In this document: piece after piece, positions 16,906-54,978 of the stretch
Numbering within the stretch: the first letter of the stretch is position 1
How the letters are laid out: each line of letters begins with the position of its first letter
NCBI GenBank assembly: GCA_015654535.1
Contig: JAATGU010000055.1
Coordinates: forward strand, 31,536-95,535
Direction of reading: 5' to 3'
DNA length: 64,000 nt
From: Bacteroidales bacterium
GTDB lineage: Bacteria; Bacteroidota; Bacteroidia; Bacteroidales; Bacteroidaceae
Notes under the pieces: generated by a model
Seen by the model: the letters and a program-made list of their open reading frames with translations, nothing else
Told to the model about the DNA's origin: nothing
Database searches by the model: none
Translations under genes and position numbers: made by a program

Positions 16906-17050
16906 TGAGTGGTGTAGATGGTGTACTAAAAAAGACTTTATTCTGGTTTCAGAAATCAAATTTCAAAAAAACTGCAAGATGCAGAATTTTTAAAAATTGA
17001 TTTTCAGAAAGAAAAAAAGCTTATTTTTAGTACACCATCTACACCACTCA
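16906..17050. repeat. 145-bp long palindromic intergenic element
   Basis: Perfect 26-bp inverted arms tgagtggtgtagatggtgtactaaaa (16906-16931) and ttttagtacaccatctacaccactca (17025-17050); centre ctgca-aga-tgcag (16972-16984); interior imperfectly palindromic about the same axis. Confidence 0.85.
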
Positions 17051-17106
17051 CATTTCTATCATGCTCATTTACAGCGAAAAAATATGTCCAGAGATCTTGA
17101 TTGAAG

Positions 17107-17143
17107 AGTCCAGAGATTTTAGGAGAAATCTCTGGACTTTTTA
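17107..17143. terminator. Terminator-like hairpin with T-tract
   Basis: agtccagagattt (17107-17119), 6-nt loop, aaatctctggact (17126-17138), then TTTTT. Confidence 0.55.
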
Positions 17144-17387
17144 AAAACTATTCTTTTTAAATTTTCAGCCATTCATCAATCATTGCTCAACCATTCATCA
17201 ATGCTTTTTATTTATTGAAGAATGGATTGTAAAGTGCCATTGAATGTTCAGAATTGCTTTTTTATATAGAGATTATATAATTCACTAAGAATAAGTATGG
17301 TACATGAAATTAAGAACCGAAAAGGTGGTTGCTACTATAGTCACAGCCGACTAGTTCAGACCTTTTTTTCTCTTTTTCGCTGAAAGA

Positions 17388-45988: not shown

Positions 45989-46193
45989 TTTTTAGCGAAA
46001 GTTTCTCTTTTAAAATAAGAAAAACTTTATAGTTTTCACTTTTCTATGATAATAAACACTCATTATAGTAGCGTTTATTGCATTTATGAGATTTATTTTA
46101 ATGAAGTGGAGCATAGAAGCAATATTCTTGAGGTACGGACACATTTATCTGATAATGAGGAAGTAATAGCTATTTTTAAACGTTTCTTTAATT

Positions 46194-46324
46194 CAGGCGC
46201 GTAGGGTGCGTAGGGTTTTTCTTAGACTTTATATACTAATATAGATAGATATGATTTATATAATAGTATCTATAGTATAGGGGTTAAGAAAACGCCTCCG
46301 CACCCTACGCATCCTACGCGCCTG
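46194..46324. repeat. 131-bp palindromic intergenic element
   Basis: 22-bp arms caggcgcgtagggtgcgtaggg (46194-46215) / ccctacgcatcctacgcgcctg (46303-46324) with one mismatch that would be a G-U pair in RNA; AT-rich, partly palindromic interior. Confidence 0.82.
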
Positions 46325-46499
46325 TCACCAGTTTCAATTCCTTTGCTTTGTTTTTTTCTGTTTTACCCCTGCTAAAATGTCTCTGGACTTCTTGTTCAAT
46401 ATGTCTGTACTCTTTGAGGAAAATGTCTGGACTTATTTTTTAAGAGGTTCTTTATTTTGACAGGATACCGATTGATTATCAAACTCAAAAATTTAAATT

Positions 46500-54906: not shown

Positions 54907-54978
54907 CTCCACCTTATAATATAAAAAGCGTCTTTTTTTATAAAATATAGTAGATTCTTTCTATATTATAAGGTGGAG
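54907..54978. repeat. 72-bp palindromic intergenic element
   Basis: Perfect 17-bp arms ctccaccttataatata (54907-54923) / tatattataaggtggag (54962-54978). Confidence 0.75.

Follow-up and report, generated by a model that had tools for sequence, protein, structure and literature searches.

A Bacteroides palindrome as a probable orphaned origin-like site from a primase-helicase islet

A long palindrome at positions 46194-46324 of a 64,000-nucleotide stretch of Bacteroides DNA (the window, meaning the whole stretch analyzed here) raises the question of what kind of element it is. The sequence-only reading of the window had grouped it with a second palindrome at 16.9 kb in a fast-diversifying family of foldback elements. 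On the evidence presented here, it is probably the origin-like site of a primase-helicase islet, present as an orphan copy. The locus contains the following features.

46001..46193, + strand: 3'-end relic of a BT4734-like PrimPol/VapE/DUF3874 gene, corresponding to about residues 641-694 of the protein encoded on contig C18, with a frame ...SSVYCIYEIYFNEVEHRSNILEVRTHLSDNEEVIAIFKRFFN that reaches the palindrome (tblastn 46% identity, E 1e-4; alignment of 12 copies and C18; translation).
46194..46324, no strand assigned: palindrome of two GC-rich arms (65-70% GC) and an AT-rich centre (21% GC), from fold and composition.
46196..46213, + strand: 9-bp repeat units GGCGCGTAG and GGTGCGTAG of the left arm, from sequence (9-bp period in 11 of 15 positions).
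46296..46322, - strand: three 9-bp units GGCGCGTAG, GATGCGTAG and GGTGCGGAG of the right arm, the same as behind the intact C18 gene.
46379..46433, + strand: three direct repeats with consensus ATGTCTGGACT (46379-46389, 46401-46411, 46423-46433) at exact 22-bp spacing, at the right end of the shared unit.

The palindrome itself is confirmed. Its 23-nt arms (46194-46216 and 46302-46324) lie 85 nt apart, are 96% complementary, and fold with a z-score of about -10. The predicted energy is -38.9 kcal/mol as DNA (z -10.3) and -66.2 as RNA (z -9.1), neither of which was equalled by any shuffle. The window contains 18 exact 14-mer inverted-repeat seeds within 300 bp, compared with none in 18 of 20 Markov-simulated windows and 1 and 4 in the remaining two. 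The arm motif GYGTAGNNNGYGTA has 8 matches in the window with at most one mismatch, against a shuffle mean of 1.3. Across the genome, the motif was found 21 times, mostly in palindrome arms. A further inverted repeat, CTCCACCTTATAATATAAAAAGCGTCT, is located at 54907-54978 of the window (27-nt arms, 89% complementary, 18 nt between them) and is unrelated to the families studied here.

The strong RNA fold would be expected of an RNA-level element, such as a transcription terminator or an mRNA 3'-end stabilizer between genes, and the gene context is mostly tandem or convergent (30 tandem, 9 convergent and 6 divergent sites in relatives; 9, 5 and 3 in the same genome). Such a role is very unlikely, given that the stem has no T tract behind it, encloses a large AT-rich centre, and in relatives adjoins a separate terminator-like hairpin. 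In addition, some sites lie between divergent genes, and the 9-bp repeats and the coupling to the VapE C-terminus described below would be left unexplained. An Rfam scan of the window returned tRNAs only.

The window is part of contig C87 in a 4.13-Mb genome of the genus Bacteroides, a draft in which repeats break contigs. As had been proposed, both palindromes belong to families, with 13 loci in this genome for the window palindrome and 10 for that at 16.9 kb. At nearly all 13 loci, the decayed 3' end of a protein gene is found to the left of the palindrome; to its right are three ATGTCTGGACT-like repeats, 22 bp apart in nearly all copies. Homology between copies has a fixed right end just past the third repeat and a variable left end, extending from none to about 260 bp. 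Retrotransposon-like 5' truncation was rejected as a cause of the variable left ends, as a reverse transcriptase is not part of the unit. The intact parent gene is present on contig C18, where it encodes a 700-aa protein with BT4734-like_N primase-polymerase, VapE helicase and DUF3874 regions, and the palindrome begins 4 bp past its stop codon; the end of the contig falls within this palindrome, in which C18 begins. The window site is regarded as orphaned because its gene has decayed to the last ~50 codons. The closest named relative of the islet gene is that of Bacteroides luti (63%).

Within the family, palindrome centres are near-identical and flanks much more diverged. An active invertible switch was considered, since 5 of the 13 copies (C23, C91, C141, C151, C18) have their centre in the opposite orientation with respect to the flanks. 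Clusters of ATGTCTGGACT repeats also occur without a palindrome at C11:55362, C110:18508, C141:36543, C134:263 and other positions of the genome; on C110, the repeats abut a gene relic, as would be expected had a palindrome between them been lost by deletion. The exact loop sequence of the window palindrome has no match in all other GTDB species, and window-family DNA has none at E<=1e-6 in 60 other genomes of the genus.

The second palindrome can be traced to a different islet.

16906..17050, no strand assigned: orphan of a second islet type with its parent at contig C159 (better-preserved members 82-97% identical to the C159 parent; same class in relatives).
17074..17144, + strand: TCCAGAGAT-type repeats beside this palindrome, of the same type as at 46.4 kb, from sequence.

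The C159 parent palindrome sits behind another BT4734/VapE gene and is followed by AAACATGTACA repeats 22 bp apart and an HU-HIG gene. The two elements of the window represent one structural class, in agreement with the sequence-only reading, and their arms share a 9-bp tandem repeat (GGCGCGTAG GGTGCGTAG at the window palindrome, GGTGTAGAT GGTGTACTA at 16.9 kb). This repeat is the part of the proposed common arm layout that stands; the 14-position alignment put forward for it is not significant, as its 9 of 14 matches are at chance level (reached by 22% of composition shuffles). Nor does the single arm mismatch, described as a G-U pair, inform on pairing, because it is G-T on the + strand yet A-C on the - strand. 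The families do have diverging, still-complementary arms, but they are not stand-alone foldback elements: each is tied to a different BT4734/VapE primase-helicase islet (C18, C159), in which the palindrome immediately follows the gene.

This association extends across the genus. We surveyed 42 such genes in 41 Bacteroides genomes for inverted repeats with a score of at least 14 and a centre of 20-140 bp, located from -60 to +300 of the stop codon. A palindrome was present at the stop codon of 17 of the 42 genes, compared with 3 of 146 control genes, and was not detected there in the other 25. Internal arm repeats were found at 15 genes and 2 controls, with a period of nearly always 9. Palindromes typically span 114-154 bp and start between -45 and +21 of the stop. 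Arm sequences differ between islets (GTGATAGGA, AAGTGGGAG, GGTGTCAGA, GGTGTACAT, GTGGCAGGA and others), each arm having two or three 9-bp repeats, in which a GGTG core is common; these repeats are 56% GC, the palindrome centre 25%. Outside the genus, a palindrome was observed at only 2-3 of about 12 loci of the wider family.

In two relatives, the orthologue of the C18 islet (protein 62-63% identical) is followed at the corresponding position by a different palindrome. Six relatives with 75-78% DNA identity to the window genes were compared. Orphan palindromes are numerous in all six, and many are paired in two slots, A and B, followed by three repeats at 22 bp. Slot A arms are of type P1 (GGTGGCAG) or P2 (GGTGTCAG), and slot B arms of type P3 (GGTGGAGA) or P4 (GGTGTACA/GGTGTAGA). 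The site of the window palindrome, behind a C-terminal protease gene, holds such a unit in 6 of 6 relatives, from an unrelated palindrome family; this may reflect replacement or a hot spot.

Several units contain or adjoin mobile elements. In genome G124, IS110-family transposase genes are present inside three palindrome units (L211, L212, L213); the L211 copy interrupts palindrome A within its left arm (AGGTGGCAG / element / GCAGTGGCAG). In genome G003, a DDE_Tnp_1 (ISAs1-like) element occurs in or near the 22-bp repeats four times (L120 3300-4760, L221 1510-2845, L209, L210), and that of L120 is flanked by repeated GTACATGATT, derived from a repeat. Group II intron reverse transcriptase genes (RVT_1 and GIIM) directly adjoin palindrome A in two units of the same genome (L209 1560-2963, L210 1554-2957).

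Insertions of the IS110 and ISAs1-like kind, as attracted by REP sequences, would fit a population of REP/BIME-like or MITE-like dispersed repeats moved by a transposase, as would the intergenic dispersed copies, the paired palindromes, and the one fixed and one variable end of the window family. We nevertheless regard this origin as unlikely. The Y1/RAYT transposase (PF01797) was absent from the window's genome and from G026, G003 and G122, in a search that found it in 5 of 14 controls. The units measure 131-141 bp with an AT-rich centre, rather than being 20-40 bp palindromes with a GTAG or CGTC foot; no terminal repeats or target duplications were seen, and many sites are common to several species. 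A parallel exists with REPtrons, in which dispersed intergenic palindromes are tied to a RAYT gene carrying the same palindrome beside it, and protein and palindrome co-evolve (PMC3733652, PMC8266576). The Bacteroides palindromes are likewise dispersed and intergenic, with a partner gene that has the same palindrome and co-evolves. They differ from REPtrons in having no Y1 transposase, far longer units, a primase-helicase partner, and internal arm repeats.

Arm complementarity has been kept despite divergence, as the sequence-only reading held. Arm differences were counted at the six orthologous sites that have them: of 88, 70 were paired double changes, 16 were one-sided and 2 unpaired; these counts are pairwise and the comparisons not independent. 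The overall pairing figure is biased because arm pairs were found by complementarity, the orthologous-site count less so. At one site where the arms are P4 in G026 and P3 in G122 and G076, the centre in G026 still most resembles its orthologues, and the arms therefore changed without replacement of the centre. Conversion of orphan arms to match the resident initiator is unsupported in G026, where the orphans are P3/P4 although the initiator genes found for that islet type are all P1/P2.

Agreement between arms need not imply strand folding, because the arms hold two or three presumed protein-binding repeats, and template-switch correction of imperfect palindromes could also produce it. A purely mutational account on the latter lines, with no function, would accommodate the position-specific agreement of arms whose internal repeats differ (e.g. 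GGTGGTAGAGGTGGCAG in both arms), as well as the inverted centres of some copies. It is highly improbable as the whole explanation: it does not account for the 9-bp repeats common to the arms, for the small number of discrete arm types, or for their match to the VapE C-terminus.

This match is confined to the end of the protein. In twelve type-2 proteins (76-97% identical), alignment columns 52-676 show no grouping by arm type (within-minus-between 0.008, 0.003; p=0.26), but columns 676-706 do (0.38, permutation p=5e-5). The arm-type-dependent residues are presumed to fall in a recognition helix and wing. Orthologous islets of different type are 85-98% identical in nucleotide sequence, but identity drops to 37-76% within a cassette that extends from about -90 to +190 relative to the stop; no dip was seen in a same-type control comparison. 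The exchanged cassette comprises the last ~30 codons of the gene and the palindrome, with the 22-bp repeats outside it. Because the exchanged codons adjoin the palindrome, linkage in one recombination tract could explain part or all of the association between C-terminus and arm type. Recognition is favoured, short of proof, by the recurrence of the same few arm types at independent orphan sites.

The protein is a presumed replication initiator. An AEP primase-polymerase domain is present (BT4734-like_N, E 1.6e-36 and 7.8e-31; PADLOC PrimPol match of 7e-35 in the B. luti ortholog), followed in the same protein by an SF3-type helicase domain (VapE-like_dom, E 7e-32 and 2.5e-31), which phage helicase families also match. 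A winged-helix-like domain is presumed at the C-terminus. The sequence pattern of this region is conserved; a single-sequence model was poor (pLDDT 46), with a helix-helix-strand-strand order and no significant fold match. The islets encode this initiator and an HU-type (HU-HIG) protein, to which one islet type adds DUF4248 and an amidase. The amidase is related to phage lysis proteins, and neither it nor DUF4248 has a role in the model proposed below (L114 4603-9283, L146 6100-8040, L294). Islets often lie beside capsule or glycosyltransferase genes; some are on plasmids and others chromosomal. No viral contigs carrying the C18 protein were found. Small 'Bacteriophage sp.' records with a VapE-like gene were not used as evidence of a free form because they are unverified linear scaffolds without annotation.

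With an HU-type partner encoded next door, the C-terminal domain might instead bind the arms as an autoregulatory operator that controls the islet rather than its replication, and every binding-site argument applies equally to this case. We consider it quite unlikely: the palindrome is behind the gene, not at a promoter, its inverted repeats flank an AT-rich centre, and the same protein contains a primase and a helicase.

Comparison with known systems points to replication. The alpha primase of phage P4 is of the Toprim type, unlike the AEP type here, and in the Rep/ori system of SaPIs the primase is a separate protein. To our knowledge, no 9-bp inverted-repeat palindrome behind the gene has been described in the P4 and SaPI literature. 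Resemblance is found in the VapE-type helicase, for which a VapE-like structure, 7pds, is the only PDB match. In P4, the C-terminal winged helix of the primase/helicase initiator reads short origin repeats (PMC4234260). The nearest counterpart is the Sulfolobus plasmid pRN1, in which a ~100-bp stem-loop behind the PrimPol-SF3-winged-helix gene (ORF904) is the origin; it is necessary in cis, sufficient when moved, and requires stem symmetry, while its sequence is poorly conserved (PMC4234260, PMC3869888). The same layout is reported for the Bordetella phages BPP-1, BIP-1 and BMP-1 (PMC4234260, PMC3869888). As in these systems, the Bacteroides islets combine an AEP PrimPol, an SF3 helicase and a (here presumed) C-terminal winged helix in one protein, directly followed by a stem-loop of ~100 bp with a short stem and large loop, the structure of which outlasts its sequence. 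The Bacteroides islets differ in being chromosomal (some on plasmids), in having a BT4734-type primase domain, and in having arms built of 9-bp tandem repeats, where pRN1 has no iterons. Also unlike pRN1, they have many orphan copies, and initiator tip and palindrome are exchanged together.

Since the Bacteroides palindromes share the pRN1 layout, the best reading of the window palindrome is as a putative orphaned origin or initiator-binding site. A mechanism can be fitted to what is observed directly: where the palindrome lies, how it is built, that its arms co-vary, and that it is exchanged together with the last ~30 codons of the gene. The C-terminal domain of the initiator would bind the inverted 9-bp repeats, two helicase assemblies would load facing each other, the AT-rich centre would melt or extrude a stem-loop, and synthesis would be started by the primase domain. 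GC-rich inverted 9-bp repeats round an AT-rich centre would suit such face-to-face loading. The window copy has the same repeat units as the palindrome of the intact C18 gene, and the C18 product should still bind it. Against the model are the 25 of 42 genes lacking a stop palindrome and the P3/P4 orphan arms of G026, for which no matching initiator genes were found.

A broader proposal, which we offer tentatively and judge more doubtful than probable, is that the chromosomes of Bacteroides carry interchangeable initiator-origin cassettes. A winged-helix tip and its cognate palindromic origin would be exchanged as a unit, each genome would have ten to twenty orphan origins served in trans by its initiators, and lock-and-key diversification (a chromosomal incompatibility system) would drive the fast turnover of arms. 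If the origin-like reading is true, it would provide a role and a cis-acting site for the widespread, unexplained BT4734/VapE-HU islets of Bacteroides, and would extend the pRN1-type stem-loop origin to the chromosomes of gut bacteria. It would also yield a natural protein-DNA recognition series of four arm types and four matching C-terminal segments in nearly identical proteins, with which initiator-origin specificity and its fast turnover would be directly testable.
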